A DNA stretch of 64,000 bases from Aminivibrio pyruvatiphilus (GTDB lineage Bacteria; Synergistota; Synergistia; Synergistales; Aminobacteriaceae): the NCBI RefSeq assembly GCF_004366815.1, contig NZ_SORI01000005.1, positions 62,001 through 126,000 on the forward strand, read 5' to 3'. Positions within the stretch are counted from its first letter, which is position 1. Each line of letters begins with the position of its first letter. Shown in pieces: positions 7,045 through 52,217 of this stretch. A program made the translations under genes and the position numbers. A model generated the notes under the pieces. The model was not told the DNA's origin, did not search any database, and was given only the letters and a program-made list of their open reading frames with translations.

Positions 7045-7062
7045 TACCTGAGGAGGATCGAC

Positions 7063-9051: not shown

Positions 9052-9593
9052 CCATGGCGAAGCCGAAAATCGCGTCCGTCTGGCTTGAGGCCTGTGCGGG
9101 CTGCCATATGTCCTTTCTCGACATCGACGAACGGATAGTGGATCTCCTCGGCAAGGTGGAGCTCACCGCCACGCCCATCACCGACATCAAGACCTTCCCC
9201 GAGGTCGAGGTGGGGGTCATCGAGGGCGCCCTCGGCAACGAGGAGGAGCTTCATCTCGCGAAGGAGCTGAGGGAGCGGTGCAAGATCCTCATTGCCTGGG
9301 GAGACTGTGCCGTCTTCGGCGGAATCAACTGCATGCGGAATTTTATGCCTGCCGAGCAGGTGCTGAAGGAAGGATACGTGGACACCGTCAGCACGGTGAA
9401 CCCCGACGGCGTACTTCCCCGCCAGGATCTCCCGGCGCTTCTGCCCCAGGCGATCCCCGTGGACCGGGCCGTCAAGGTGGATGTCTACGTTCCCGGATGC
9501 CCGCCCGACGCGGACACCATCTATTATGTCTTCAGCGAGATACTGGAGGGGCGGATTCCCACCGTTCCCACGGATATCATGCGCTACGACTAG
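9048..9593 (+). CDS. hydS: [NiFe] hydrogenase small subunit HydS (HoxY-like)
   Basis: 181 residues, the size of a cytosolic group 3 small subunit that has only the proximal [4Fe-4S] cluster. Its ligands are visible: CAGC (Cys16, Cys19), WGDC (Cys87) and PGCPPD (Cys151). There is no Tat signal and no medial or distal cluster region, so it stays in the cytoplasm and passes electrons to HydA. Start chosen at the ATG inside an ATGA overlap with hydA, with AAGGAGG eight bases upstream. Confidence 0.92.
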   Translation: MTMAKPKIASVWLEACAGCHMSFLDIDERIVDLLGKVELTATPITDIKTFPEVEVGVIEGALGNEEELHLAKELRERCKILIAWGDCAVFGGINCMRNFMPAEQVLKEGYVDTVSTVNPDGVLPRQDLPALLPQAIPVDRAVKVDVYVPGCPPDADTIYYVFSEILEGRIPTVPTDIMRYD

Positions 9594-36162: not shown

Positions 36163-36627
36163 ATGTCCAATGCCCGCTCTCCCTGGGCCGGGAATATCCG
36201 GCACGGGGTCTTTTTTCTCGCCGTGGCCGCCCTTTTCGGCCTGCAGGGGATCGCCGTCCACGACGGCGGTCAGTGGAGCCTTTCACCTGCCCTTTTCCCC
36301 CTGATCCTTTCAGGGGGGCTTGCCTTCCTCTCCGCTGCGCTCATCGGCCAGGCCCTCCTCAGGATCCGTGCCGGGAACGAAGGTCCTTCCCTGAACGGGG
36401 GAGCCCCTGTTTCCGCCATGCGTGCATCCCTGACCTTTCTCCTGTGCCTCCTCTATGCCCTGGCGCTGCCCCGGGCGGGCTTCCTGCCGGCGAGCGCCGT
36501 GTTCCTCGCCCTGTTCTGCCTTCTTGTCGGTGAGCGGCGCCTCCGGGCTGTCGCTGCCCTGTCCCTCGTTTCCCCGGCGGTGATATACCTGCTGTTCCGC
36601 CACGGGCTGAACGTGCTTCTTCCCTAG
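36163..36627 (+). CDS. tctB: TTT-family small membrane subunit TctB, operon 2
   Basis: 154 residues with four predicted membrane segments: GVFFLAVAALFGLQG, LFPLILSGGLAFLSAALIG, the ASLTFLLCLLYALAL region and AVFLALFCLLVG through the C-terminal LVSPAVIYLLF. AAGGAAGG precedes the ATG. Context between tctC and tctA fixes the call. Confidence 0.82.
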   Translation: MSNARSPWAGNIRHGVFFLAVAALFGLQGIAVHDGGQWSLSPALFPLILSGGLAFLSAALIGQALLRIRAGNEGPSLNGGAPVSAMRASLTFLLCLLYALALPRAGFLPASAVFLALFCLLVGERRLRAVAALSLVSPAVIYLLFRHGLNVLLP

Positions 36628-36640
36628 GGGGACCGCGGCA

Positions 36641-38161
36641 ATGGATCTCATCCTCTCCATGGTTTCCCAGGCGGACTTCACCTTCGTGATGCTGATCTTC
36701 GCGGGGGCCTTCGCCGGGCTCTTTGTAGGCGCCATTCCCGGGCTCTCCGTCACCATGGCCACGGCCCTGCTGGTCTCCATAACCTTCACCTGGACGGTGA
36801 AGAACGCCCTCGCCGTCATTCTCGGAGTGTTCGTGTCAGGGGTCTACGCAGGGGCGGTTTCCGCCATCCTGATCAATATTCCCGGAGCCCCCTCCTCGGT
36901 GGTCACCACCCTCGACGGGTACCCCATGGCCCGGAAGGGGGAAGCGGCCCTGGCCCTGTGGGCGGCCACGTTCCATTCCTTCGTGGGGAGCGTGTTCGGC
37001 TTCCTGGTGCTCATGTTCGTCGCCCGTCCGGTGACGGCTTTTGCCCTCTCCTTTTCCGCCATGGACTACTTTCTCCTGGCCCTTTTCGGCCTCACCACCA
37101 TCGGGACGCTCACGGCGAAGAATTACCTCAAGGGGGGCATCTGCGCGCTTCTGGGCCTGCTGCTGAGCATGGTGGGCATCGACCCCTTTTCCGGTGCGGC
37201 CAGGTATTCCTTCGGCCTGACCGACCTGCAGGGGGGCATTCCCCTCATCGCCGCCCTGATCGGCCTTTTCGGCTTTGCCGAGGTGCTCGACCAGGTCGCC
37301 AGGGGGACCATGAACGCCATTGCCGCACAGGCGGGCAGGATGCGGTATTCATTCCGGGAGATGATCAGGTACCTGCCCCTGTCGCTCCGGTCCTCGGTCA
37401 TAGGGACCTTCATCGGCGCCCTTCCCGGGGCGGGGGGGCCGGTGGCCTCCATCATCGCCTACGACCAGGCCCGGAAGTCTGTGAAGAATCCTACCCGGCC
37501 CTTCGGGGAGGGAGCGGTGGAGGGGGTCATCGCCAGCGAGGCTGCCAACAACGCCTGCATCGGCGGAGCCCTCATCCCCATGCTCACCCTGGCGGTTCCC
37601 GGGGACGCCGTCACGGCGGTCATCCTGGCGGCATTCTACGTCCACGGCCTCCAGCCGGGACCCCTTCTGTTCGTCCGGACGCCGGAACTGTTTTCCGTGG
37701 TGCTCGCCGCAGGATTTCTCGCCTGTATCGCCATGCTCGTGCTGGGCATGACGGTGGTTCCCCGCCTCTCGGGGATCGTCCTGGTACCCAAGCGGATCCT
37801 CATGCCCCTGGTGACGGTGCTCTGCGTTGTGGGAACCTATGCGGTGAACTCGAGCATGTTCGACGTAGGGCTTATGTTCTGCTTCGGTCTTGCGGGTTTC
37901 CTGATGAGAAGCAGGGGGTATCCGGCCGCACCGCTGGTGCTCGGACTCGTCCTTGGGGAGATGATGGACTCGAACCTCCGGAGGGCGGTGAACATGGCAA
38001 TGGCCGGGGACAGCGTTTTTCTGGAGCTGTTCGGCCGTCCCTCCACAGTGGTGCTTTCTCTCATGGTGGCTTTTTCCGTCCTCGCCGCCGTTCCGGCGGT
38101 GAAGGAACGGATCGGTGCGGCGGCCTCCCGCCTTCTTTCGGTCTTCGGATCGGGCAGGTGA
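36641..38161 (+). CDS. tctA: TTT-family large membrane subunit TctA, operon 2
   Basis: 506 residues, about twelve membrane segments. Conserved pairs: GAIPGLSVTMATALLVS and AVSAILINIPGAPSSVVTTLDG in the first half, GALPGAGGPVASIIAYD and NNACIGGALIPMLTLAVPGDA in the second. Ends at a perfect palindromic terminator. Works with the preceding TctB and TctC. Confidence 0.92.
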   Translation: MDLILSMVSQADFTFVMLIFAGAFAGLFVGAIPGLSVTMATALLVSITFTWTVKNALAVILGVFVSGVYAGAVSAILINIPGAPSSVVTTLDGYPMARKGEAALALWAATFHSFVGSVFGFLVLMFVARPVTAFALSFSAMDYFLLALFGLTTIGTLTAKNYLKGGICALLGLLLSMVGIDPFSGAARYSFGLTDLQGGIPLIAALIGLFGFAEVLDQVARGTMNAIAAQAGRMRYSFREMIRYLPLSLRSSVIGTFIGALPGAGGPVASIIAYDQARKSVKNPTRPFGEGAVEGVIASEAANNACIGGALIPMLTLAVPGDAVTAVILAAFYVHGLQPGPLLFVRTPELFSVVLAAGFLACIAMLVLGMTVVPRLSGIVLVPKRILMPLVTVLCVVGTYAVNSSMFDVGLMFCFGLAGFLMRSRGYPAAPLVLGLVLGEMMDSNLRRAVNMAMAGDSVFLELFGRPSTVVLSLMVAFSVLAAVPAVKERIGAAASRLLSVFGSGR

Positions 38162-38163
38162 CG

Positions 38164-38203
38164 GGAATAAATCAGGGCCCCGGCCGGGGCCCTGATTTAT
38201 TCC
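38164..38203. terminator. Bidirectional palindromic terminator
   Basis: A perfect 20-bp inverted repeat (each arm GGAATAAATCAGGGCCCCGG or its complement) lies between convergent tctA and the FAD oxidoreductase gene. The AT-rich outer arms provide A/T runs on both strands. It contains the stop codon of the minus-strand gene. Confidence 0.85.
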
Positions 38204-39483
38204 AGAATGGCTCCTTCGTCCAGCAGGGTCTTCCGGAGAAGATCCCGGTCCAGATCCCGGAGGAGACTGCCGGAGCGGAGGGCGAGCCGGGCCGCGGTCC
38301 CGGCGGCGTGGCCTGTGGCGAGGCACTGGCCCATGACCCGGGAAGAGGCGTAAGCCCCGGAGGTGACGGAGATGTTCCTCCCCGCGGCGAGGACATTGTC
38401 CATTCCCCTGGGGAGGAGAGAGCGGTAGGGGATGGTGTAGTCCTTTCCGCTCCACCGGTAGACGAGGCGGTTCCGTTCCCAGTCGTGGTACTCCATGGGC
38501 CAGGAGCCAACGCAGACGGCGTCGGCAAAGAGCCGCCCCTCCATGATGTCCTCTTCAGTGAGAGTGTAGGCGCATTCCGTCCTGGAGGCTTCCCTGACGC
38601 CTAGGGCGGGGGCGATGCAGGACAGGACGGCCCTTTCGAACCCCGGAACGTATTTCCGGAAAAACCGGGCGTTTTCCAGGACCTTGTCCCTTCCGCCGGT
38701 CAGTCCCGCAGTGACGTCCAGGGGAACCGAGGGATCCGCCTTCACCCAGTTGGCGTTCACTATGGCGGCCGTTCCGCCGGGAAGGACAGTGAGAACGCCG
38801 TTGCCCCGCTCCTGGGTGATGTCCCCCTTCGCCCGGGCTTCAGCCATGAGCGAAGCGATCTGATCCTTGCTGACGGCCCTGGCCGTTTTTCCGTCCACGC
38901 TGTCCATGCGGAACACCATGGTCCCGGCCTGGAGTTTCCCCCCTTCCGGGGAAAGGACGGCGCCGGAGGGGGCGAAGGGGGCAAGAAGGGCCTTTCCCGT
39001 GACATCCACGGCGATCTTGGGAAGGATGACCACCCGGGTGCCTGACTCGGTGTTGACCGTTTCGACGGACAGGAGCCTTTCGCCGTCGAAGGAGGCCCCG
39101 GTGACGAGAGTGGAAAGATGCAGTTCCGTTCCTCTGCGGAGAACCATCCTGTCGAGGGCGCAGGCAAGAAGCTCGGGGTCGCAGATGTCGCTCCTGTGGG
39201 TATCCCGGTTCACCCCCTCGTCCAGTCCTCCGAGGGCCTTCAGTTCCCGGGCGAGGGCGTCCCTGGCGCCGCCGGAGATTTTTCGCCGTTCACCGAGGGA
39301 AGAGTAGCACCCGCAGAGGGTACTCACCAGTCCGTTGGTGGCCGTTCCGCCGAGACGTCCGGTTTTTTCCGCCAGGACGACGGAAATTCCGGGGGCCGAC
39401 GCGGACCATGCCGCCGCCGCACCGGCGGAACCGCCGCCGAGAACGAGAATATCGCAGGACAGGGTGGAGGAAACTGTTTTCAC
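38197..39483 (-). CDS. FAD-dependent oxidoreductase (FAD_oxidored family)
   Basis: 428 residues from a GTG at 39483 with GGAG eight bases upstream; an ATG at 39489 is too close to that site. The N-terminal dinucleotide fold DILVLGGGSAGAAAAWSASA and LAEKTGRLGGTATNG (the GG motif after strand 2) are clear. The C-terminal FAD segment is RGMDNVLAAGRNISVTSGAYASSRVMGQCLATGHAAGTAA. This family includes flavoproteins often fused or linked to anaerobic catabolism; the substrate is unknown. It converges on TTT operon 2 and might act on the same acid. Confidence 0.8.
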   Translation of the reverse strand: MKTVSSTLSCDILVLGGGSAGAAAAWSASAPGISVVLAEKTGRLGGTATNGLVSTLCGCYSSLGERRKISGGARDALARELKALGGLDEGVNRDTHRSDICDPELLACALDRMVLRRGTELHLSTLVTGASFDGERLLSVETVNTESGTRVVILPKIAVDVTGKALLAPFAPSGAVLSPEGGKLQAGTMVFRMDSVDGKTARAVSKDQIASLMAEARAKGDITQERGNGVLTVLPGGTAAIVNANWVKADPSVPLDVTAGLTGGRDKVLENARFFRKYVPGFERAVLSCIAPALGVREASRTECAYTLTEEDIMEGRLFADAVCVGSWPMEYHDWERNRLVYRWSGKDYTIPYRSLLPRGMDNVLAAGRNISVTSGAYASSRVMGQCLATGHAAGTAARLALRSGSLLRDLDRDLLRKTLLDEGAILE

Positions 39484-39684
39484 GGGCATCACTCCGTTCT
39501 GTGAAAAGTGTTTTCCTGCATGCCGCCCGGCTCAGGGGAACGAGGGGTCCGGCAAAGGCGGAAAAAGAGAGAAAAGTTTCTGTTTCATAAGAAAAATGAT
39601 TCCATGAAACGGCATTTTGTACTATGATAACAGATTGTGAGAGAGCATGAGCGTTGCCATACCTTTGCAGGAGGCGAATGCGCC

Positions 39685-41514
39685 ATGGCGAAAATGCCGC
39701 AGGAAAAACACCCCCCAACCGAAGGAAGTCCCCCGAACGGGACCGGAGCCTTTGCCCCCGGAAACGGTGTCCAGGACGGGGATGAAGCTTTCTGCCCCGC
39801 GGCTCTCCGGGGTATCTCCCAGAGAATAATGAAAGACCGGTGGATCGAAAGCCTGTCCGCCAACCTGCACGGGTTGCTCTTCCAGGTGAGGCGGGCTCCC
39901 TCCGGCAAAGATCTTATCGCCTGCATTGGAGGAACCCTTGCTTCCTATTTCGGTTTTAGCCCAGACAATGCCCCGGTGGACAGGGATGCTTTTTTCCGGA
40001 ACGTCTCTCCCGGCGACCTTCCAGGGGTTGTCCGGTCTTTCGATGAAGCCATGGAAAAGAAGAGCACCTGGAGGTGTGAGTTCCGTCTCGAACTTCCTGA
40101 GCGCCGCCGGTTTTTCGTCGAGGGGACGGCGTCACCGACGGAGGAGCCCGAGGGCAGCCTTCTGTGGCACGGGTTCCTCGCGGATGTGACGGAGAGGAAG
40201 GACCTCGAGGAGAGGCTGAAGGACCAGCTGGAACTCCAGGAGCAGATCTTTGCCACCATCCCCGTGCCCCTCGTCCTCAAGGATCATTCTTCACGGTTCC
40301 TCCAGGTCAACGAGGCTTTCGCAGATTTCGTGAACAAGCCCAGGGAGGACATCCTGGGAAAGGGCCCCCATGAGGTCTTCGGCCCGGAGCTGGCCGAGCT
40401 GGTCTTCCGGGAAGACCGGGAAATTCTCCGGACAGGGGAGACGAAGATGGACCTTGAGCGCCGGGTGACTGATGGTCACGGCAGGCTGATGTGGCTGAAA
40501 TCATACAAGGGACCCATCCGGAACAGCCGGGGAGAGATCGTGGGCATCGTGGGGGGCAACATGGACATTTCCGCCGTGAAGGACGCGGAAGAAGCCCTCA
40601 GGGAGAGTGAAGCCCGCTGGAAGTTCGCCCTGGAAGGATCGGGGGCGGGGGTCTGGGATCTCGACGTCCGGACCGGCGATATCTTTTTTTCGAAACAGTG
40701 GAAGGCTTTGCTTGGCTACGAAGACCACGAGGTCCGGAATTCCCTGGAGGAATGGAAGAGGCTGATCCATCCGGACGACGCAGAAGGGACCTTCCGGCAG
40801 ATTGAACTTACCCATGAGAAGAATCTGGACGTCTGTACTGCCGAGTTCCGGATGAAGCGGAAGAACGGGGAGTGGGCGTGGATTCTCGGCATGGGGAAAG
40901 TGGTGGAGCGGGACGGAGACGGGAAGCCGCTCCGGGTGATCGGCACCCACACGGACATCACTGAAAGGAAGAATGCTGAAAAGATCATCTTCCACCAGGC
41001 CACTCACGACGCGCTCACCGACCTGGCCAACAGGTCCCTGTTCAATGACCGTCTCGAGATGGCCATGGCCGAGGCCAGGCGGTGCGGGAAAAAAATCGGG
41101 GTTACTTTTCTCGACCTGGATAATTTCAAGAAAGTGAACGACGCCCTGGGGCATTCGGCGGGAGATATGCTGCTTGTAAGCGCCGCAGAAAGGATGCGGC
41201 GGACGCTCAGGGATACGGACACCCTGGCCAGGATCGGGGGGGACGAATTTGCCTTTCTTTTCCCCCTGGTGGAGGACCGGGCCGAGGTGGAAGCCGTGGC
41301 GGCCCGGATTCTGGAAACGCTCTCCGCGCCGTTCATCATCGAGGGACGGGAGTTCACCATTTCCGGGAGTATGGGGATCTGCCTCTTTCCGGAGGACGGC
41401 GGCGATGCGCAGACACTCATGAAGAGGGCCGACATGGCCATGTACGAGGCAAAGCGGGCGGGGAAGAACACCTGGCGCCACTGGGCGGGGTTACCCTGTT
41501 CCGTCAACGGATAA
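39685..41514 (+). CDS. PAS-PAS-PAS-GGDEF diguanylate cyclase
   Basis: 609 residues from the ATG at 39685 (CAGGAGG ten bases upstream). There are three PAS/PAC regions: about 60-170, 180-290 (KDHSSRFLQVNEAFADFVNKPREDILG, DISAVKDAEEALRE) and 300-430 (GVWDLDVRTGDIFFSKQWKALLGY, HTDITERKNAEK). The C-terminal cyclase starts TDLANRSLFNDRLEMAMA and holds RIGGDEFAFLF. An inhibitory I-site RDTD lies five residues before GGDEF. Makes c-di-GMP in response to redox or ligand signals sensed by PAS. No membrane segment is seen, so it is probably cytosolic. Confidence 0.9.
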   Translation: MAKMPQEKHPPTEGSPPNGTGAFAPGNGVQDGDEAFCPAALRGISQRIMKDRWIESLSANLHGLLFQVRRAPSGKDLIACIGGTLASYFGFSPDNAPVDRDAFFRNVSPGDLPGVVRSFDEAMEKKSTWRCEFRLELPERRRFFVEGTASPTEEPEGSLLWHGFLADVTERKDLEERLKDQLELQEQIFATIPVPLVLKDHSSRFLQVNEAFADFVNKPREDILGKGPHEVFGPELAELVFREDREILRTGETKMDLERRVTDGHGRLMWLKSYKGPIRNSRGEIVGIVGGNMDISAVKDAEEALRESEARWKFALEGSGAGVWDLDVRTGDIFFSKQWKALLGYEDHEVRNSLEEWKRLIHPDDAEGTFRQIELTHEKNLDVCTAEFRMKRKNGEWAWILGMGKVVERDGDGKPLRVIGTHTDITERKNAEKIIFHQATHDALTDLANRSLFNDRLEMAMAEARRCGKKIGVTFLDLDNFKKVNDALGHSAGDMLLVSAAERMRRTLRDTDTLARIGGDEFAFLFPLVEDRAEVEAVAARILETLSAPFIIEGREFTISGSMGICLFPEDGGDAQTLMKRADMAMYEAKRAGKNTWRHWAGLPCSVNG

Positions 41515-41540
41515 ACTTGCCGGAAGAAAGGATGAAGAAC

Positions 41541-42692
41541 ATGTTTCCGTCATTCAGCTATGAAATGCCCACCAGGGTGGAGTTCGGCCGTGGGGTGGCG
41601 CTCCGCACAGGGGAAGAGGTCGGAAGGATCGGCGGCACGCGGGTTCTGCTTATCTCCGACGAAGGGGTCCGGAGGGCTGGACTGCTCGACCGCGTCACGG
41701 AGAGCCTTGACCATGCTTCCGTTCCCTGGGACCTGTTTCTCGATGTGGAACCCAACCCGAAAGACCGGAATGTCCATGCCGCGGCTGCCGCAGTGTCCAA
41801 ATCGGGGGCGGACTGTCTCGTGGCGGTGGGCGGAGGCAGCCCCATCGACTGTGCCAAGGCCGTGGCCATCGTGGCCGCGGCGGGGGGCAAGGTCAGGGAG
41901 TACGAGGGACGCTTCAAAACCTCCGTCCTTCCCCTTCCCATCATTGCCGTGCCGACTACTGCCGGAACGGCGAGCGAGCTGACCTTCGGCTCCGTCATCA
42001 CGGACACGGCGGCGAAATTCAAGTTCACCGTCAAGAGTCCCCTGCTGGCCCCGAAAGTGGCCCTGGCCGACCCGGAAATGACGGCCACCATGCCGAAGAA
42101 CCTCACCGCATTCACGGGAATGGACGCCCTGACCCACGCCATCGAAGCCTATACCTGCCGGGCCGCCACGCCCTTCTCCGACGCTCCTGCCATTGTGGCC
42201 ATGGAGCTTATCGGGAAGTATCTTCGCAGGGCCTGGAAGGACGGCTCCGACATGGAGGCCAGGGAGGGAATGCTCCTCGGGAGCCTCCTCGCCGGGGTGG
42301 CCTTCAGCCATTCCGACGTGGCGGCGGTCCACTGCCTCGCCGAGGCTCTGGGCGCACTGTACGACGCTCCTCACGGAGCCTGCAACTCCATCGCCCTTCC
42401 GGCCGTAATGGAATTTTCCATGGATGCCTGCGTGGACCGGTACGCCAGGGTGGCCGCCTGCCTCGGCCTGTCCTTCTCCACTCCCCGGGAGGGGGCGGAA
42501 AAGGCCGTGGAAGAAGTGAAGCGGATGGCCATAGATCTTGAGCTGCCCTCTCTTTCGGTTTTCGGCATCAAAGAGGAGGATTTCGACGAGATCGCCGCGA
42601 AATCGGAGGCCAACTCGTCGAATCCGGACAACCCGAAGATCCTCACGAAGGCCGACTATGTCGGGATCCTCAAAAAACTGACCTCCGCATAA
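41541..42692 (+). CDS. Iron-containing alcohol dehydrogenase
   Basis: 383 residues from ATG 41541 (AAAGGATG upstream); in-frame alternatives at 41517 and 41532 exist. Group III Fe-ADH marks: VAVGGGSPIDCAKAVAI (nucleotide), PTTAGTASELTFGSVI, ALTHAIEAYTCRAATPFSDA and AVHCLAEALGALYDAPHGACN, with the metal His and Asp residues present. The family reduces aldehydes or ketones with NAD(P)H in fermentation. It is 26 bases after the cyclase gene. Confidence 0.92.
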   Translation: MFPSFSYEMPTRVEFGRGVALRTGEEVGRIGGTRVLLISDEGVRRAGLLDRVTESLDHASVPWDLFLDVEPNPKDRNVHAAAAAVSKSGADCLVAVGGGSPIDCAKAVAIVAAAGGKVREYEGRFKTSVLPLPIIAVPTTAGTASELTFGSVITDTAAKFKFTVKSPLLAPKVALADPEMTATMPKNLTAFTGMDALTHAIEAYTCRAATPFSDAPAIVAMELIGKYLRRAWKDGSDMEAREGMLLGSLLAGVAFSHSDVAAVHCLAEALGALYDAPHGACNSIALPAVMEFSMDACVDRYARVAACLGLSFSTPREGAEKAVEEVKRMAIDLELPSLSVFGIKEEDFDEIAAKSEANSSNPDNPKILTKADYVGILKKLTSA

Positions 42693-42777
42693 GGAGGGGT
42701 CCGCCGTGCCGGCCTGCTGAAAATCCGGGTTTCCGCGGAGAAAGGCTGTTTTGAAGGCGGACAGGAAAAGGAAACAG

Positions 42778-42819
42778 AAAAGCGAAGGGAGAACGGGCAG
42801 TTCCCGCCTTCGCTTTTTT
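42778..42819. terminator. Bidirectional terminator between the ADH and acyltransferase genes
   Basis: AAAGCGAAGG (ending 42788) pairs with CCTTCGCTTT (42807-42816) and is followed by a T-run on the plus strand and an A-run on the minus. It separates two convergent operons. Confidence 0.8.
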
Positions 42820-44560
42820 ATTGCTCGAGAAGGGCCGCCATCTCCTCCATGTTTTCGGCCAGCTTGTCCCGGAAAGCGAGCAGGAGCGGCTCCAGGGAGG
42901 TTCGGCTTGTCATGGTGAAGACCAGCTTGTGGGGGAACATCAGGTAACGGACGCCGAACCCCTCGTCGTCCGACGGGCCGTAACCGTAGATGCGGAATGC
43001 CTCAGTGGGGCCCGTGCTCGTGGAGACCATGTTCCTGGAAAGAACGGCGTATCCGGGCGAGGAAAAGAGGGCCGGCGGTTCGTGAACTCCTATCTCCCGG
43101 CCGAAGCGTTCCATCATCTTCCGGAGGCCGAAGAGGTGGCGGTCCACTCCCCGCCCGTCCCGGCATTCCGAGACCCGTTCACTGTGGGCCCTTGAGGCGG
43201 CCTTCAGGGCTTCCGCGGTCCGCCTGTGCGCGAAGGCGGCCGCTTCCGCCGTGACTGGGCGCATGGCCTCGGTGCGGCCCAGGAGAAACTGCCGGGTCAT
43301 CACCGCTTCATAGGCGTTCAGGAATCTTCCGTACAGGCCGAAGACCGATGTCTGCATGGCCACCTGGCAGAATGCGTCGGGACTCATCCCGAGGCCCTTG
43401 ATTTTCTCCCGTCCGAAGGCTGAGAATTCAAGGACGGCCAGCGTAGTGTTCTTCCGCAGGCAGTGGAGGGCCTGTCCGGCTTCTTCGAGATGCCGGACGG
43501 CTTCTTCGGAAAGGTGAAAGGGCAGCGGCAGGGCGGAAAGAGCCTGCCATTTCCCATATCCGCCCGTCCCGCCGGACCTGAGAATGACGGATGCAAGAAG
43601 CGCGTGCTGGGAGCCGTCCAGGCCGGAGTGCTCGAAGTTCAGGCCCGCTTCTCCCCTTTCATCGACGATGATCTGGAAAGACTTGTCATACCATCGGTTC
43701 GCTCCTCCTCCGGAGAGATAGTGAAGCCCCTTCCCCTGGAGAGAGGGCGGGGTTTCCGGGTCGAGACAGAGGACAAAGAGGGCCGACTCTATTCTCTCCA
43801 GGTTCCCGCGGTTCTCCGGACAGATGGAGGCGATCGTTTCCCTGAGAGCCCCCCAATCCCTCCGGGGGAGTGATGTGCCGAGGCCGATCTCCCCGCCGGG
43901 CCGCGGGGAAGCGGCAATTTCATCGAGACGGACGGCGAGGCTTTCATGGGATGCCTCGTTCCCCTCCGGAGAGAGGACGTCCAGCGACCATGCCCCTCCC
44001 CCGCACAGGACGGTGATGTGGCGGCTGTCCGGCCGCGTGGCGAGTTCGTCGCCGGAGAGACCGGCAATTCTCGTGGTGCCGAACAGATTTCTGTACTGGC
44101 TCATGCACAGAGGCGTTCCCCGGTCGGTATCGGGAGGGAGGGTTTCGCTGTCGATGCTTTTTTTCAGGGAGAGTGCGGCGGAGATCAGCCATGCTGCCCT
44201 CCGGGAGCGGGGGGACGGGCTGAGGAGAGGCGGAAGGTCCAACAGGGAAAAGACATTGCTGTTGATCACAAGGGGGGCGGGGGATTCGAGATAGGTCCGG
44301 AGCCAGAAGTCCGAGAGCCAGCTTTCCGGCGTCTCTTCGGACCACTCCTCCAGGCGGCGCTGGAGCTTTCTGCCCGCCCCGCCGGGAGCGAGAAAGGCCC
44401 GGGCTGACTCCGCCGTCTCATGCCGGCCCTGTTCGTCAAGAAGGGGAGCCGTCCAGTCCAAAAATTTCGGGAGGGTTTCCTCAAGAGGAAGAACAGGGAG
44501 CCTGGGAAGGCTCCCCTGGAAAGCAAACGTGCCGGATGTTTCCGGATATTTTTCAGCCAT
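42818..44560 (-). CDS. Carnitine/choline O-acyltransferase family protein
   Basis: 580 residues. Transfers an acyl group between CoA and the hydroxyl of carnitine or choline. Family marks: LPRLPVLPLEETLPKFL at the N-terminus, PLCMSQYRNLFGTTRI, the catalytic FEHSGLDG (His311, Asp315), NMVSTST (STS motif) and DEGFGVRYLMF. It aligns in order with eukaryotic CrAT/ChAT though somewhat shorter. Starts eight bases after the permease stop in an operon with a quaternary-amine ABC importer. The frame is open to 45268, but that part is inside the permease gene. Substrate (carnitine or choline) is inferred. Family is uncommon in bacteria. Confidence 0.88.
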   Translation of the reverse strand: MAEKYPETSGTFAFQGSLPRLPVLPLEETLPKFLDWTAPLLDEQGRHETAESARAFLAPGGAGRKLQRRLEEWSEETPESWLSDFWLRTYLESPAPLVINSNVFSLLDLPPLLSPSPRSRRAAWLISAALSLKKSIDSETLPPDTDRGTPLCMSQYRNLFGTTRIAGLSGDELATRPDSRHITVLCGGGAWSLDVLSPEGNEASHESLAVRLDEIAASPRPGGEIGLGTSLPRRDWGALRETIASICPENRGNLERIESALFVLCLDPETPPSLQGKGLHYLSGGGANRWYDKSFQIIVDERGEAGLNFEHSGLDGSQHALLASVILRSGGTGGYGKWQALSALPLPFHLSEEAVRHLEEAGQALHCLRKNTTLAVLEFSAFGREKIKGLGMSPDAFCQVAMQTSVFGLYGRFLNAYEAVMTRQFLLGRTEAMRPVTAEAAAFAHRRTAEALKAASRAHSERVSECRDGRGVDRHLFGLRKMMERFGREIGVHEPPALFSSPGYAVLSRNMVSTSTGPTEAFRIYGYGPSDDEGFGVRYLMFPHKLVFTMTSRTSLEPLLLAFRDKLAENMEEMAALLEQ

Positions 44561-44568
44561 GGAGAAGG

Positions 44569-45420
44569 TTACCTCTTGGGCGGTTCCCACCGCTTGGCCA
44601 TGTTCTGAGTGAGACGGTCGATGACAATGGCCAGGAACACCACGCTCATGCCCGCTTCGAATCCCCTGCCCACGTCGATGCGGTTGATGGAGAGCAGGAC
44701 TTCCTGTCCCAGGCCCCGGGCACCGATCATGGACGAGATGACGACCATGGCCAGGGCCATCATGGTGGTCTGGTTCACTCCTGCCAGGATGCTCGGCATG
44801 GCAAGGGGAAGGCGCACTTCCCTGATGAGCTGCCAGCGCGTGGCGCCGTAGGCCAGGGCAGCCTCCTCCACGGGCTTGGGAACCTGGTTCAGCCCGAGGG
44901 CGGTCAGCCTGATCACGGGAGGAAGGGCGTAGATAAGGGTGGCGAGAACAGCGGGGACCTTGCCCAGTCCGAAAAGCATCATTGCCGGTATGAGGTAGAC
45001 AAAGCTCGGCATGGTCTGCATTCCGTCCAGAAGGGGACGGAGAACGGCGGCGACGGGCCGCAGCTCCGCCATGAGCACGCCGAGGGGCAGCCCGATGATC
45101 AATGCCATAAGAACGGCGGTGATGATCACCGAAAGGCTTTCGACGGCCATTGCCCAGAGACCGAACATGCCGATGACGAAGGGCAGGGATGCCAGAATCA
45201 CGGAGGAAATGAGTTTTTTCGACGAATACCAGCTCAGCAGAAAGACGCCCGCTATGTAGGCCCACCACGGGATGAACGTGAGAATCGAGTTGACTCCGAG
45301 GAGGAACGAGAGTATCCCGTCGGAAATGGAATCGAAGACGGGGGAGTAGGCCTCGATGAGATTGTTAATGAATTCATTCACCGCCCCGGCCACGTGGTAC
45401 CGGAAAGCTTCAGGAAACAT
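44569..45420 (-). CDS. Glycine betaine/carnitine-type ABC transporter permease (ProW/OpuAB)
   Basis: 283 residues, about six membrane segments. The permease signature loop YGATRWQLIREVRLPLAMPSILAG is intact, as is MALAMVVISSMIGARGLGQ. It forms the membrane pore of the quaternary-amine importer. Overlaps the upstream ATPase gene by 11 bases and is followed by the acyltransferase. Confidence 0.9.
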   Translation of the reverse strand: MFPEAFRYHVAGAVNEFINNLIEAYSPVFDSISDGILSFLLGVNSILTFIPWWAYIAGVFLLSWYSSKKLISSVILASLPFVIGMFGLWAMAVESLSVIITAVLMALIIGLPLGVLMAELRPVAAVLRPLLDGMQTMPSFVYLIPAMMLFGLGKVPAVLATLIYALPPVIRLTALGLNQVPKPVEEAALAYGATRWQLIREVRLPLAMPSILAGVNQTTMMALAMVVISSMIGARGLGQEVLLSINRIDVGRGFEAGMSVVFLAIVIDRLTQNMAKRWEPPKR

Positions 45421-46351
45421 GGGATGCTCCCTCCTTCCCCGCCCTGCTTCTGGCCAGGACCTCTTCGGCCCGCCTCATCTGCTCCCGTTCGTCGCTGACG
45501 AACCGCATGACATAATCATCTGCCGGGTTCGCGATGACCTCGTCGGGAGACCCGACCTGGACGATCTCTCCTTTTTTCATGATGGCCATGCGGTCTCCCA
45601 TGCGGAGCGCCTCGGAAAGGTCATGGGTCACGAAAAAGATGGTCTTGTGCATAACCTTCTGAAGATGGATCATCTCGTCCTGCAGCTCCCGCCGGATGAG
45701 GGGGTCGAGCCCGCTGAACGGCTCGTCCATGAGCAGGATGGGCGCGTCCATGACGAGAGCCCGGGCGATACCCACCCTCTGGCGCATGCCGCCGCTCAGG
45801 GACGCCGGGTAGTATTTCTCCCATCCCTTGAGCCCGACCTTTTCGATAGCGTCCGCTGCTTTTCCCATCCTGCATTCCTTTTCTTCTCCCCTGAGCTTCA
45901 GGCCGAAGGTGACGTTCTGCAGAACCGTGCGGTGGGGCAGCAGGCCATAATGCTGGAAGACCATGGCGATTTTTTCCCTGCGGAAATTGACGAGCTGCCG
46001 TTTGTTCATCGCCGTCACGTTCTCGCCGTTGATGATGATTTCGCCGGAGGTTGGTTCCACGAGACGGAGCAGGCACCGGATAAGGGTCGATTTGCCGCTG
46101 CCGGAGAGCCCCATGATGATGAACGTCTCTCCCTGCCTGATTTCCAGTGACACGTTTTTCATCGCCACCACGGCGTCTTCTCCCCTGTCAAGCTCCTCCA
46201 CACGCTCCTCGTTCTCCACGTCCGAAGAAGAAACGGTCAGGCCCTTCTTACGGGTATAGATTTTCCAGAGGTCGCGGATAAGAATGGCCTCCGCTGCGGT
46301 TCCGCCCCCGGAAACGCCGGATGCGGCGTCCGCCTGCTGCGGGGCGTCCAA
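45410..46351 (-). CDS. Glycine betaine/carnitine-type ABC transporter ATP-binding protein (ProV/OpuAA)
   Basis: 313 residues. Walker A MGLSGSGKST, Q-loop VFQHYGLLPH, signature LSGGMRQRVG, Walker B ILLMDEPFSGLDP and H-loop FVTHDLSEA are all present. There is a ProV-like N-terminal extension with VENEERVEELDRGEDAVVAMKNVS. The C-terminus (about 40 residues) lacks a full CBS pair. Starts directly after the binding-protein stop (46352). Confidence 0.93.
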   Translation of the reverse strand: MDAPQQADAASGVSGGGTAAEAILIRDLWKIYTRKKGLTVSSSDVENEERVEELDRGEDAVVAMKNVSLEIRQGETFIIMGLSGSGKSTLIRCLLRLVEPTSGEIIINGENVTAMNKRQLVNFRREKIAMVFQHYGLLPHRTVLQNVTFGLKLRGEEKECRMGKAADAIEKVGLKGWEKYYPASLSGGMRQRVGIARALVMDAPILLMDEPFSGLDPLIRRELQDEMIHLQKVMHKTIFFVTHDLSEALRMGDRMAIMKKGEIVQVGSPDEVIANPADDYVMRFVSDEREQMRRAEEVLARSRAGKEGASHVS

Positions 46352-47356
46352 CTATTTCTCCTCCTTCAGCGCCGCGGTCACTTTTTCAGCCACGTCGGAG
46401 GAAACCCAGGATGTCCAGACATCCTCGAAATTTTTCAGGAACCAGACGGCGGCCTGCCGCGTATCCGCCTTCGTCTCGAACATGAAGCCGAGGACCTTGT
46501 TGTTCTGCTCGAGGGTTGTGCTGTAGTTTTTCAGGAATGCCGCGATGTCGGGGTTGGCCTCCGCGAACTTCGCATTGGCGACGATGAGCACACGCACCGA
46601 CGGAATGGCGCAGGCGTACAGGTTCTCGTCGTTCCAGAGCTTTTCATCGTAGGGGGGCTCTTCGAGCATGGTCATGTCAAGAAGCCCCATGACCCACGTG
46701 GGCTCCCAGTAATAGGCCAGGACGGGCTGGCCCCGGTCGTAGGCCCTCTTGATGGCGGTGGAGAGGGCGGTTTCGGAGCCTGCGGAAAAGGCATCGTAAT
46801 GCTTGTCCAGGCCGTAGCCCCTGATCTTCATCTCGTTGATGGACGTGACCTTCCAGCCTGCCGGTCCGTTGAGAAGGCGCCCCTTCTTCGGGTTCTCGGG
46901 GTCCTTGAAGAGCTCCCAGTATTTCGGAAGGTCGGCAACGGACTTGAGGTCGGGAGCGACCGGCTTGATACCCCGGGCTTCGTCTCCCTTGATCATGTAG
47001 GTGGGAACGTACCATCCCTGGGGGGCGTCGGGGAAATTCGTTCCGAGGCTCACCATTTTTCCGCTGGCCGTGGCTTTATCCCAGAACTCGAGAATGTTGT
47101 CAACCCAGCCTTCCATGGAAAAGTCGGCGTCTCCCCGCTCGATGCCCATCATTCCCGGAAGGGACTCGGCGAAGATGAAGTCAGTCTCTTTGCCGAATCC
47201 TTTCTCGATGATGTAGGCCGCAATGCGGTTGTGGATCTGGACGCTGTCCCAGCTGAAGTCGACCAGCGTCACGGGGCGGGCTGCCGCCGTTCCCGGAAAG
47301 GCGGTAAACAGGCATAGGACTGCAAGAACAAGCGCAATAGTGGTTCGCATTTTCAT
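46352..47356 (-). CDS. Glycine betaine/carnitine-type substrate-binding protein (ProX/OpuAC)
   Basis: 334 residues from ATG 47356, with AGGAGG seven bases upstream. Signal peptide (ALVLAVLCLFTAF, cleavage near TAAA-R). OpuAC fold: VDFSWDSVQIHNRIAAYII, DFSMEGWVDNI, GWYVPTYMI, LAYYWEPTWVMGLLDM. Four conserved Trp/Tyr positions suit an aromatic cage for a trimethylammonium group. First gene of the four-gene operon. The bound amine (betaine, carnitine or choline) is not certain. Confidence 0.9.
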   Translation of the reverse strand: MKMRTTIALVLAVLCLFTAFPGTAAARPVTLVDFSWDSVQIHNRIAAYIIEKGFGKETDFIFAESLPGMMGIERGDADFSMEGWVDNILEFWDKATASGKMVSLGTNFPDAPQGWYVPTYMIKGDEARGIKPVAPDLKSVADLPKYWELFKDPENPKKGRLLNGPAGWKVTSINEMKIRGYGLDKHYDAFSAGSETALSTAIKRAYDRGQPVLAYYWEPTWVMGLLDMTMLEEPPYDEKLWNDENLYACAIPSVRVLIVANAKFAEANPDIAAFLKNYSTTLEQNNKVLGFMFETKADTRQAAVWFLKNFEDVWTSWVSSDVAEKVTAALKEEK

Positions 47357-47463
47357 GCAAACACCTCCTGGTAGGAATTTTTTGCGTTGGATGCCGGTAA
47401 AGGAAATGGACATCCGCGAAGAAAAATGAAGTGTTTCCCCTCGGGGTGAACATGTATTATCTG

Positions 47464-47492
47464 ATTAAAACTCAAGGCGCACAATTTGTCAA
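47464..47492 (-). promoter_or_regulatory. Promoter of the quaternary-amine/acyltransferase operon
   Basis: Minus strand TTGACA (47492-47487), 17-base spacer, TTTAAT (47469-47464), about 110 bases before the binding-protein start. The opposing DinB-like gene may have an overlapping start in this 237-base divergent region. Confidence 0.7.
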
Positions 47493-47593
47493 GATAGATA
47501 ATTCTGTATTGTATATCCACCCTCCCCCTGTGGGCGCAGGCCCCGGCAGGGGGTATACTTATCCTCACCTACTATCCAAAAGGGGGCTGAGCT

Positions 47594-48070
47594 ATGCGAA
47601 ACGTGGTGAACGGTATGAAGGGATATTTTGACCGGGGGATGGACTTCCTGTTCAGGCAGATCGACGAATGCCCGGACGACCTCTGGAACAGGAAGGGCGG
47701 CGGATTCTTTTATTGGCAGCAGGTGTACCATGCGTTCTTCTGCGTGGACTATTTCCTTCTCCCCCCCGAAGGGGAGATGGTGGAAGAACCTTTCGGACGG
47801 GCTGTGGCCATGTTCAGCGAGGTGCCTCCGGTAGCTCCTTCGAAGGAGACTGTGAGAGAATTCGGCGCAGTCATGAGGAAAAAGGCGGACGAGTGGATTG
47901 CCGCCCTCGACGACGAGTCCCTGGGGCTCAGGCATGAGGGAATGACGGCCCGGAAGAAGGCGGAAACATGCAACGGTGCGGTTTTTGCCTCCCTGTGCGG
48001 CCACAACATGTACCACGTGGGGTGCCTCGATTCGGTGCTCCGGGAGCATGGCCTGAAGGGAGTCTACTGA
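47594..48070 (+). CDS. DinB-like four-helix protein
   Basis: 158 residues. Helical bundle with probable metal ligands VYHAFFCVDYF and CGHNMYHVG (His-x3-His), the layout of DinB/YfiT-type metal proteins. Members act as thiol-dependent transferases (bacillithiol or related) or are uncharacterised. Ribosome site GGGGGCTGAG is 3-10 bases before the ATG. Divergent from the amine operon. Confidence 0.7.
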   Translation: MRNVVNGMKGYFDRGMDFLFRQIDECPDDLWNRKGGGFFYWQQVYHAFFCVDYFLLPPEGEMVEEPFGRAVAMFSEVPPVAPSKETVREFGAVMRKKADEWIAALDDESLGLRHEGMTARKKAETCNGAVFASLCGHNMYHVGCLDSVLREHGLKGVY

Positions 48071-48134
48071 TCCCTGACGGTCCCTGACGGACGGGGAGAC
48101 CGGTTCCGGAGGGCAGACCCGTCATGGTATGATG

Positions 48135-48163
48135 AACCCCGGTCCTGCAGGACCGGGGTTTTT
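48135..48163 (+). terminator. Intrinsic terminator after the DinB-like gene
   Basis: AACCCCGGTCC, TGCA loop, GGACCGGGGTT, then TTT: an 11-bp stem and short T-run, 65 bases after the stop codon. Confidence 0.8.
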
Positions 48164-48225
48164 CCTGCGGCCCGCAGGAGCACGAAAGTGTACGGAGAGG
48201 AGGAGTATGGTGCCGGCCCCATTGT

Positions 48226-49605
48226 TTGTCTTCGCCCCGGACAGGTCTGTTCTCGGCCTTTCTGGCGGTCCTCGTGTCGGGGGCCTCTGTTCTGGCGTCC
48301 GCCGGGTACTTTTCCTCTCCTGAAGACCGCCGCTTTTACTCTTCCTGGACCGCCGTCTTCCTCCTCACGGTCCTTGGGTGCCTCTTCTCCGCCTCCTGGC
48401 TCGGCTACCTCGTTTTCCTCGAGCTGTCCACCGCCGCCCTGTTCTTCCTCACGGCCCGGAAGGAGCCCCGGACGGCCTTCCGGTACCTCACGGCCCAGCT
48501 TGCGGGGGCGGCCCTTCTTCTGGGAGGGATCGCCGGCGCGGGGGGCGGCCTTGCCTTCGGCCCGGTGGAAGGGGATGTCCGCCTTCTGTTCATCCTGGGC
48601 CTGGGTGTGAAGACGGCGCTGCCGGGTCTGCACTTCTGGCTTCCGGAGACCCACGGGAGGGCGCCTGCGCCTGTGAGCGCCCTGCTGTCGGGGGTGGCGG
48701 TGAAGACGGGAGCCTTCGGCATCCTGACGGCCCTCGGCGGCGTGCCGTCCCCGGGCCTCGTGGCCGCCGGGGCCGTCATGGCGCTCTGGGGCGCTCTTCA
48801 GGCCACGCTCCAGTCCGATGTGAAGCGGCTTCTTGCCTACAGCACCGTGAGCCAGCTGGGGTACGTGATGGCGTCTGCGGGAGCGGGAGGAGCGGCGGGA
48901 GCGGTGTACCATTCCCTTGCCCACGGGCTGTTCAAGGGGTGCCTGTTTCTGTGTGCGGGGTCGCTGGAGAAGTCCTTCGGCACCCGGGACCTCGGCCTGC
49001 TGGAAGGGCGGGGGCGGGAGCTTCGCTGGACCCGTTGGCTGTTCTGGCTGTCGGCGGCGGCCATCATGGGTCTTCCGGGGACGGTGGGGTACGGGAGCAA
49101 GATTTTCGTGAAGGAGCCGCTCGGCAGCTGGCCCCTTGCGGGGATTGCGCTGGCCGTGGCGAACGGGGGAACGGTGATGTCCTTCTGCAAGATGGGGTAC
49201 TATGCCTTCGGCCCCGGAAAGAGGAGCGCCGGTGGACGGTCCGTGAGCGAGAGCGGTTGGATGGTGCTCGGTATGGTTCTGCTGTCGGTGCCCGTGGTGG
49301 TGCTGGGGCTGTTCCCCGGCGTGTTGGGGAGGCTGCTCGGCGGGGGAGAGCAGGAGCTGTTCTCCGCGGGGAAGCTGGCGGAGAGCCTCGGGGTGTTCTG
49401 TGCTGGTGCGGCGCTCTTTTTTCTTTTCCGGAAGAGGCTGGGGACACTCGGGGAGCTGCCGGATGCGGACCGTCTGACGGACCGCCTGCCCGCGTTTTTT
49501 GCCCGAGCGGTGCTCCCGTTCCGGCGCCTCCAGGGGGGCAACCTCCGGGAATATCTTCTGGCCGCGGTTTCCGCGGCCCTGCTGCTGGCGGTCCTTCTGT
49601 TCTGA
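48226..49605 (+). CDS. Antiporter-like proton-conducting membrane subunit (NuoN/MrpD-type), probably frameshifted at its start
   Basis: The 459-residue open frame contains the core of complex-I-like antiporter subunits: KTALPGLHFWLPETHGRAPAPVSALLSGVAVKTG, DVKRLLAYSTVSQLGYV, and the conserved Lys and His in membrane helices (HSLAHGLFKGCLFL). Its first codon (TTG 48226) has no ribosome site. An ATG at 48207 with a strong GAGAGGAGG site opens a different frame (MVPAPLFVFAP) that looks like the proper N-terminus and shifts into this frame near 48240. One extra C in the CCCC run would do this. The gene is thus either truncated, frameshifted or affected by a sequencing error. Confidence 0.65.
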   Translation: MSSPRTGLFSAFLAVLVSGASVLASAGYFSSPEDRRFYSSWTAVFLLTVLGCLFSASWLGYLVFLELSTAALFFLTARKEPRTAFRYLTAQLAGAALLLGGIAGAGGGLAFGPVEGDVRLLFILGLGVKTALPGLHFWLPETHGRAPAPVSALLSGVAVKTGAFGILTALGGVPSPGLVAAGAVMALWGALQATLQSDVKRLLAYSTVSQLGYVMASAGAGGAAGAVYHSLAHGLFKGCLFLCAGSLEKSFGTRDLGLLEGRGRELRWTRWLFWLSAAAIMGLPGTVGYGSKIFVKEPLGSWPLAGIALAVANGGTVMSFCKMGYYAFGPGKRSAGGRSVSESGWMVLGMVLLSVPVVVLGLFPGVLGRLLGGGEQELFSAGKLAESLGVFCAGAALFFLFRKRLGTLGELPDADRLTDRLPAFFARAVLPFRRLQGGNLREYLLAAVSAALLLAVLLF

Positions 49606-49630
49606 GGACGGGCGGGGGAAGGATGATCTC

Positions 49631-51134
49631 ATGATCTTTTCTGACTACTGGATGCTCTGGCCGATTGTCGTCCCCCTGGCGGCGGCGTTCGTGCTGCAGG
49701 TGCTGGACTATTTCGTTCCGGAAAGGATGGAGGGCTGGATAAGGATTTCCGCTGTCGTCACCGCAGCGGCTGCCCTCGGGGCTTCCTTCTCCGGCTGGAA
49801 CGCGGTGCGGGTGCTCCATGTGGGGGGGTGGGCCGCCGAGCTTGGAATTATCCTCGTCACCGACAGGCTCTCTTCCGTTTTCCTTCTCGTTTCCTCCCTG
49901 GGGGGGGCGGCTTCCGCCTGGACAGTGTTTTTCCCCTTCCGGAGGGAGAACCGCCGCTTCTGCGGGTTGTTCTTTATTCTCTGGGGAGCGCTCAACGGAA
50001 TTCTCGTCACGGGCGACCTCTTCAACATGTACGTTTTTTTTGAGATCCTGGCCGTATCGGCCTATGTGCTGGCAGGAGCCGCCATGACCCGGGAAGGCCT
50101 CGAGGCGGGGCTGAAATACCTCGTCCTCGGCACCGTGGGGGCCCTGTTCCTTCTTATGGGAACGGCGCTGCTCTACATGGGGAGCGGAACGCTGAACCTC
50201 GCCCTTCTTTCCTCCGCCATGGAGAGCGTTCCCAGGGGTGCGGCCGCCGCCGCCGCCGCGTGCCTCCTGACAGGGCTCGGACTTAAAATGGGAATGTTTC
50301 CCTTTCATTTCTGGCTTCCCGACGCTCATTCGTCCGCGTCCACAGGGGTGAGCATGATTCTGTCCGGAGTGGTGGTGAAGGCCTCTTTCTACGCCCTGCT
50401 GCGGATCGTGTTCCTTCTTTTTCCGGCAGGGTCCGGCTTCTTTTCGGTTCCCGACATCCTTCTGGCTCTCGGTGTTCTCTCCCTCGCGGCGGGGCACCTG
50501 TCCGCCCAGCGACAGCATGACGTGAAGCGCCTCCTGGCGTGGTCCACGGTGGCCCACATGGGGTACCTTCTGATCGGCGCAGGGTGCGCTTCTCCCCTGG
50601 GCATCGGCGGAGCCCTTCTTCACGCGCTCAACCACGGGGCGGCGAAAATGGGGCTCTTCCTCGGTGCCGGCGGGCTGTATTCCCTTTCGGGGAGCAGGAA
50701 CTGGCGTTCCTTCGGGGGGGGCAGCGTCACGCCATCCCCGGGAAACGGGAGCCATGGCCCTCCTGGCGGCGTCTCTGGCGGGCATTCCTCCCCTGGGCGG
50801 CTTCTGGAGCAAGTGGATGATTCTCCTGGCGGCGGCGGAGCGGGGGGCCTGGGTTGCGGCCCTGGCGGTGGCTGCGGGTACAGTCCTCTCGTGCCTCTAT
50901 TATGTTCCTCTTTTCTTCGTGCTGTACGGTCCGTCACGGCCCGAAGTCTCCGCAAAGAAGTCGGGAGCCCCATTCCCCGGGGGAAGGCTACTCCTTGCCC
51001 TCGGCGCTTCAGCGGTGCTCCTCGCGCTCCTCTATCTCGTTCCCGGGCTGCGGGAGCAGTTTGTTTCGGCGGGAACGTCGGCCCTGGTCCCGGACGCCTA
51101 CATCGGGAACGTCCTGGGCAGGCCGGTCCCCTGA
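49631..51134 (+). pseudogene. Second antiporter-like subunit (NuoN/MrpD-type), split by a G8 tract frameshift
   Basis: Read in two frames: residues 1 to about 360 from ATG 49631 (AAGG upstream), including GDLFNMYVFFEILAVSAYVL, GLKMGMFPFHFWLPDAHSSASTGVSMILSGVVVKAS, HDVKRLLAWSTVAHMGY and HALNHGAAKMGLFL, ending at NWRSFGG. Then the +1 frame restores ETGAMALLAASLAGIPPLGGFWSKW and the C-terminal helices to 51134. The break is a run of eight G (about 50714-50721); seven G would keep one frame of about 500 residues. It could be real phase variation, decay or a sequencing slip. Function with its neighbour: cation/proton channel of a membrane oxidoreductase, but other subunits are absent here. Confidence 0.7.
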
Positions 51135-51170
51135 CGGTGTATATCCATGGCAAGGAGGTTGATCTCGCCC

Positions 51171-52217
51171 ATGACCGAAAAAAAGGAACTGCGGGAACTC
51201 GTGTCACCATTGCAGGAAGTTCTTCTTGAGTCCCGGCGGACGGCCATGACGGCCGTCAACGCGGAGATGCTCAGGGCCTACTGGGAGATGGGAAAAATTC
51301 TCCTGGAGGCACGGGAAGGAGAGAATGTCCCGGATGACCTTCTCGAAGCCGTGTCGGCGGAGCTGGCGCCGGAATTCGGGAGGGCGTTCAGCGCGAAGAA
51401 GCTCGCGGCCATCCGGTCATTCTACGGCGAATACGCCCACCGGCCTCCCCTTATCCGCTTCCATGAAAAAAACGAGCTCGCGGAATCGGGGCTTCCGCCC
51501 CTTAACCCCAGGCTCAGCTGGACCCATTACCGCCTCCTTCTTTCCCTTCCCGGGGAGGAGGAGAGAAAAGCGGCCGAGCGGATGACTCTTCGGGAGCGGT
51601 GGTCCGTATCCGAACTGGAACGGCAGCTCGGGAACGGAACCCCCCTGGTGTGCCCGGATACGGGAGAGGAGTGCGACGACGGTCCCTCCTACCCAGAGGA
51701 TTTCGCCTCCGATCCTCATGTCCAGGCCTTTCTCGGGGTCCCCGAGAGGCAGCGTCTCACGGAAACCGTCCTCGAACGGGCTCTCATCGACCATCTGCAG
51801 ACTTTTTTCCTCGAGAAAGGGCAGGATCTCTATCTCGTGGAACGGCAGAGAGAAACCGTCCTCGACGGAGAAGCGGTTTTCACCGACCTCCTCTTCTACT
51901 CCAGGCCCCTTCATGCCTTTCTCGCGGCGGAACTGGTGTACGGCGATTTTTCCCGTGAGGATGAACAACGGATGGAGCGTGTCCTCCGGAAGATCAGGGA
52001 GGACGGCCTGGTGGAGGATGAGACGGAGAATCCTCCGGCGGGGCTTCTCCTCTCGGTGAGGAAGGACGGCGGGCGGATGAGGTATATCTTCCCTGCCGGG
52101 GCCGCCGGGCAGGAACAGCGATACCGCTCCAGGCTCCCCCTGGAGGAGGATATCGCCGCCGAGCTTGAAAGGGAGCGGGACGAGATCCTGGCCCGCTACC
52201 CCTTCCTGGAAGAATGA
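51171..52217 (+). CDS. YhcG-like (DUF1016) protein with degenerate PDDEXK nuclease motif
   Basis: 348 residues. The N-terminal helical domain (LLESRRTAMTAVNAEMLRAYWEMGK, FSAKKLAAIRSFYGEY, LSWTHYRLLL) is the DUF1016-N part. The C-terminal domain is nuclease-like: FTDLLFYSRPLHAFLAAELVYGDF. The normal motif D-(x)-ELK has ELV here, so the catalytic Lys is Val and nuclease activity is doubtful. Start at ATG 51171 is chosen (a weak AAGGAGG lies 12 bases upstream); an ATG at 51147 is an alternative. Such genes sit in accessory loci, often beside restriction systems, but none is here. Confidence 0.75.
   Translation: MTEKKELRELVSPLQEVLLESRRTAMTAVNAEMLRAYWEMGKILLEAREGENVPDDLLEAVSAELAPEFGRAFSAKKLAAIRSFYGEYAHRPPLIRFHEKNELAESGLPPLNPRLSWTHYRLLLSLPGEEERKAAERMTLRERWSVSELERQLGNGTPLVCPDTGEECDDGPSYPEDFASDPHVQAFLGVPERQRLTETVLERALIDHLQTFFLEKGQDLYLVERQRETVLDGEAVFTDLLFYSRPLHAFLAAELVYGDFSREDEQRMERVLRKIREDGLVEDETENPPAGLLLSVRKDGGRMRYIFPAGAAGQEQRYRSRLPLEEDIAAELERERDEILARYPFLEE

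Follow-up and report, generated by a model that had tools for sequence, protein, structure and literature searches.

A CrAT-like acyltransferase gene in a ProU/Opu-type ABC importer operon of Aminivibrio pyruvatiphilus, and its recurrent linkage to importer genes

The window (the whole 64,000-nucleotide stretch of DNA that was analysed) lies on contig C5 of a 3.35 Mb genome. Four genes lie head to tail on its minus strand, from 47356 down to 42818, in the order substrate-binding protein (SBP), ATPase, permease and acyltransferase (Table 1). The SBP gene starts with an ATG at 47356 preceded by AGGAGG, the permease gene begins within the last 11 nt of the ATPase gene, and the acyltransferase ATG (44560) is found 8 nt past the permease stop. 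The claim of a sequence-only reading that the acyltransferase is the last gene of a ProX/V/W-type importer operon was confirmed, with all four genes in place. An 816-codon open reading frame was considered as a possible fusion and rejected; it reads through the permease region out of frame with the permease, and the likely acyltransferase start gives a protein of 580 aa. A promoter scan found no sigma-70-like site, and terminator matches were near chance level. Nearby, positions 41517-42692 encode an Fe-type alcohol dehydrogenase, for which the best NCBIfam model was the GbsB choline dehydrogenase (below cut-off). A gene for an Mrp/Nuo-type membrane subunit (49499-51229) shifts reading frame near 50700, through either a frameshift or a sequencing error.

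Table 1. Genes of the importer-acyltransferase operon, with window coordinates.
Feature	Coordinates	Strand	Evidence
PF00755 carnitine/choline-type acyltransferase, 580 aa	42818-44560	minus	profile, alignment, predicted fold
ProW/ChoW-type ABC permease	44569-45420	minus	PF00528 (BPD_transp_1)
ProV-family ABC ATPase	45410-46351	minus	ABC_tran; TIGR01186 above cut-off
OpuAC/ProX-type substrate-binding protein (SBP)	46352-47356	minus	PF04069, E 3e-50

Textbooks present carnitine acyltransferases as enzymes of mitochondria and peroxisomes. The window protein matched the Pfam family Carn_acyltransf (PF00755) with an E-value of 6e-145 (484.5 bits against a cut-off of 22.3; profile positions 1-559 of 574), and the solved CrAT, ChAT, CPT2 and COT structures at E-values of 1e-51 to 1e-66. 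Its predicted model (pLDDT 90.9) was superimposed on carnitine acetyltransferase (CrAT) with a Z-score of 44.9 and 1.8 Å across 560 residues, at 30% identity. The predicted structure has the two-lobed CrAT fold, with Z-scores of 43-45 to CrAT, ChAT (44.6), COT and CPT2, and 14.4 for the structure that ranked next. Since these four score nearly alike, the fold alone does not reveal the substrate.

Active-site residues were compared by alignment to mouse CrAT, with the numbering of the F565A chain of 1t7q. Equivalents of His343, Tyr452, Thr465, Arg518 and Ser552-Thr553-Ser554 are all present; the Pfam profile and this alignment bear out the earlier description of a PF00755 acyltransferase with intact catalytic His and STS motif. 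Thr465 and Arg518, together with Tyr452, are positions that we take, from published CrAT mutants, to bind the carnitine carboxylate and to be carnitine-selective. Rat ChAT has Val465 and Asn518 (CrAT numbering) where the window enzyme has Thr and Arg. Because Tyr452, Thr465 and Arg518 are kept, carnitine is a more plausible substrate than choline; of the two products proposed earlier, acyl-carnitine or acyl-choline, the residues of the window copy favour the former. The enzyme has Tyr at the position of Met564, which, again judging by published mutants, limits chain length in CrAT, and Gly at that of Phe565. The Tyr suggests short acyl chains, and the chain-length preference may differ from that of CrAT. 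The window enzyme thus has the predicted fold and these catalytic and carnitine-site residues in common with the mitochondrial/peroxisomal CrAT, unlike which it is bacterial and encoded in an ABC importer operon.

The importer combines, in one operon, an OpuAC SBP with a ProV-family ATPase and a ProW-type permease, as in ProU/Opu-type systems. The ATPase passed the cut-off of the NCBIfam proV subfamily (TIGR01186; 342.5 against 326.6 bits), and the best models for the permease were ChoW and ProW, both under their cut-offs. The nearest solved chain to the SBP is RnDmpX (7yle; E 2e-33), and it is only through this nearest solved homologue that the DmpXWV DMSP importer comes into comparison. The RnDmpX cage residues Trp35, Trp84, Trp152 and Trp202 align with W55, W103, W187 and W236 of the SBP, so that the aromatic cage is conserved. 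These four Trp residues support an onium ligand, without singling one out. DMSP itself has no hydroxyl for acylation. The ligand of the SBP is uncertain because RnDmpX is of the DMSP-specific type, and the DMSP-specific DmpX of R. pomeroyi showed little binding of betaine, choline or carnitine (PMC10030565). In its OpuAC SBP with a four-Trp cage, its ATPase and its permease the system is like the ProU/OpuA/Dmp-type importers of betaines and onium solutes; unlike these, it has an acyltransferase as a fourth gene.

The family had been called rare in bacteria, which holds with qualification: it was found in 30/185 Synergistota genomes and in at least 37 loci among 84,980 species genomes, and the window genome has two copies. 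Linkage was scored in a sample of 59 relatives, 17 of which carry the family (19 loci). Of the 19 acyltransferase loci, 11 have an OpuAC gene no more than 5 kb away, against an expectation of about 1.8% per locus (from 3.8 OpuAC genes in each genome). On a binomial model p is 4e-15, or 1e-7 when only families are counted, independence being a rough assumption in both cases. The order proX-V-W-acyltransferase recurs in three genomes (G034, G039 and G056), and a full proXVW set precedes the acyltransferase in parts of family f1 and in f6. In families f1, f3, f8 and f9 a lone SBP gene is directly upstream; in the window's own genome (G000) and in G001 such pairs overlap by 1 nt (TAATG). An SBP gene is also paired with the acyltransferase in Acetomicrobium hydrogeniformans, which can be cultivated. 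A close ProW is encoded elsewhere in all ten genomes searched for it, nine of which carry lone SBP pairs. Possession of two or more OpuAC genes also tracks the acyltransferase (17/17 against 10/42 genomes, p 3e-8), but this tally includes the linked SBPs themselves and is drawn from related genomes, and the case is therefore made from adjacency. Amino-acid-type ABC genes next to the acyltransferase at L020/L021 and L035-L037 are convergent with it, and no OpuAC partner lies near the ABC ATPases of L057 and L059; neither group was counted as linkage. In two genera a butyrate kinase gene is directly upstream of the acyltransferase (L020:6783-7850; L021 from 9869, minus strand).

The distribution beyond Synergistota comes from a single scan of the 84,980 species genomes with two peptide patterns, for which the 37 loci are a lower bound; many are from MAGs. 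OpuC-type importers, with an OpuAC-domain SBP nearest to OsmF, two permeases and a ProV-family ATPase, lie beside the acyltransferase in MAGs of Syntrophomonadaceae, Clostridiaceae and Oscillospiraceae (L055, L058, L083 and L085). At L058 (Clostridiaceae) the second acyltransferase copy follows the SBP gene on the same strand; at L055, L083 and L085 importer and acyltransferase are convergent or divergent, a weaker linkage. The two L058 acyltransferases, at 5992-7716 (+) and 7801-9540 (-), face each other and are of divergent sequence, the second coming after the OpuC-type SBP. In Anaerophilus (L053) an OpuAC SBP gene is upstream of the acyltransferase. An actinobacterial MAG (L078) has, on one strand, genes for an OpuAC SBP, a betaine-homocysteine methyltransferase, a dimethylglycine-dehydrogenase-like protein and then an acyltransferase, the last with an interrupted reading frame. 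A chance link between importer and acyltransferase is very unlikely, because OpuAC genes are near 11/19 loci, often as the lone upstream gene, and versions occur in Clostridia and the actinobacterial MAG. The direct gene link of quaternary-amine uptake with acylation that the sequence-only reading had seen therefore stands, recurring with several transporter types and in several phyla, far above chance. Alphaproteobacterial-type homologues (L074-L077 and L079) have Gly/Ser452, Gln518 and Asn552, one of them with Gln aligned to the catalytic His, and perhaps have another activity. The acyltransferase tree does not settle the deep forks among Arg518-bearing enzymes.

From the computed gene order, predicted fold, catalytic and carnitine-binding residues and recurrent linkage, we infer a substrate, a (short) chain length, a direction and a physiological role for the window enzyme. 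The reading that we prefer, with a probability of about 0.5, is an accessory function in which (acyl)carnitine import is joined to CrAT-type acyl exchange with CoA, for net acylcarnitine salvage. The OpuAC-type ABC importer would bring in carnitine and/or short-chain acylcarnitines, and in the cytoplasm the CrAT-type enzyme would pass acyl groups to and fro between carnitine and CoA. In net terms salvage is the most likely use (acylcarnitine + CoA → acyl-CoA + carnitine). It would preserve the energy of the ester bond, which is lost with a hydrolase such as HocS; the resulting acyl-CoA would enter fermentation, and carnitine would be kept as an osmolyte or released. Where a butyrate kinase is encoded alongside (L020 and L021) it could convert acyl-phosphate to ATP, a phosphotransacylase step being assumed. 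Two things favour salvage, the coupling of the enzyme to uptake and these butyrate kinase genes. The reaction is reversible and the carnitine-binding residues would also serve the opposite net direction, in which acyl groups pass from the acyl-CoA of amino-acid fermentation to imported carnitine, as a CoA buffer (a role that animal CrAT has, according to PMC11852590) or for acylcarnitine that is stored or released. We consider this rather unlikely: no exporter or carnitine/acylcarnitine exchanger is linked, the window genome has no BCCT carrier, and an ATP-driven importer and the butyrate kinase of other genera fit salvage somewhat better.

Against the preferred reading, no gene beside the window acyltransferase would use its product, and a whole-genome search of the window genome found neither a BCCT carrier nor an MTTB demethylase. 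The suggestion of a new pathway is not borne out. Among the 59 genomes, MTTB demethylases were present in two (the window genome not among them), and Fisher tests tied neither BCCT carriers (p 0.15) nor CoA-transferase III (p 0.56) to the acyltransferase. These counts give no support to a Cai-type or demethylation route.

The history of the locus was followed in related genomes. In another genus (G034) the block is present with the acyltransferase in place, the enzyme being 71%, the permease 87% and the dehydrogenase 81% identical. Two species of the same genus (G001 and G003) have the syntenic block without the acyltransferase, with about 100 bp between dehydrogenase and permease, and a third (G002) retains a decayed acyltransferase remnant of about 350 bp and an intact importer. 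The Fe-type alcohol dehydrogenase still adjoins the importer in the species without the enzyme. A ProV+ProW tree placed the window, G002, G001 and G003 together, then G034. Between the window and G034 the acyltransferase has a dN/dS of about 0.14, with dS close to saturation, compared with 0.06-0.07 in its neighbours; the gene is constrained, though more loosely than they are. The simplest reading is presence in the ancestor of both genera followed by repeated loss. The sequence-only reading would have been refuted by a recent chance neighbour that relatives lack; the absence is seen, but recent chance is not, since G034, of a different genus, keeps the enzyme at the site. The gene is old at this locus but dispensable, because another genus keeps the enzyme in place and same-genus species without it keep the importer. 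With these losses and the looser constraint, the acyltransferase is an optional extra, attached to an importer whose core job is a different one. They are also what would be expected of an importer for osmoprotection with an enzyme that only shares its promoter, or of a gene being lost (the dN/dS is roughly twice that of the neighbours), but retention in G034 at the same site, an intact window copy under purifying selection and the recurrence of such pairs in other families and phyla make an incidental neighbourhood unlikely.

The second PF00755 copy of the window genome (G000:C5:8409-10031; L034 7929-9704) has Gly for Arg518 and belongs to a Synergistota clade (support 100/99) where this position is Gly or Ala in 17 of 18 sampled members, L043 keeping Arg. 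An in-frame deletion has removed about 235 codons from its upstream SBP gene relative to G001; the acyltransferase itself is intact (89% to G001, dN/dS about 0.19). G001 is the mirror image, with the second system complete and the first acyltransferase lost. The two genomes could represent reciprocal loss of overlapping functions, in one case that possibly includes an assembly error. The enzymes of Anaerophilus (L053:4976-6745) and Moritella (L071:5971-7755) have neither Thr465 (Ile instead) nor Arg518 (Gly or Ser instead) and stand apart from the Synergistota Arg518-less clade in the tree, possibly through an independent change of substrate. That the window enzyme acylates choline or another onium alcohol instead of carnitine would fit the Arg518-less second copy, the choline model that scored best for the permease (below its cut-off) and the near-equal fold scores of ChAT and CrAT, but is improbable given its Thr465 and Arg518, positions at which ChAT carries Val and Asn.

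The closest known parallel to salvage by import and acyl exchange is caiX-cdhCAB-hocS of Pseudomonas aeruginosa, an operon headed by the gene for CaiX, a lone carnitine SBP that uses the CbcWV core; HocS is a hydrolase for short-chain acylcarnitines, and cdhCAB degrade carnitine (PMC5806209). Both operons begin with a quaternary-amine SBP gene and include an enzyme for short-chain acylcarnitines (in the window, a proposed substrate), and the lone Synergistota SBPs with ProW elsewhere resemble CaiX on its shared core. The window copy differs in having a CoA-dependent transferase in place of HocS and no carnitine-degrading genes beside it; neither a HocS-type esterase nor CdhCAB was among the neighbours identified at 36600-52200. 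In the open-access literature we found no account of a bacterial carnitine acyltransferase tied to an importer.

More broadly, and tentatively, anaerobes of several phyla might trade acylcarnitines (or carnitine) as acyl currency, with dedicated SBPs and a CrAT-like enzyme leading to ATP-yielding fermentation, which would be the CoA-dependent equivalent of the HocS route of aerobes; the Synergistota clade without Arg518 would act on a different onium alcohol. The recurrent pairs in distant bacteria point to a little-noticed exchange of acyl groups of coenzyme A with imported carnitine. Should the linkage have a functional basis, anaerobes fermenting animal-derived matter could save acylcarnitine energy or buffer CoA with imported carnitine. 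The window genome and its relatives offer a natural comparison of a carnitine-type and an Arg518-less copy, each tied to an SBP, with species that have lost one or both; substrate and role are therefore directly testable.
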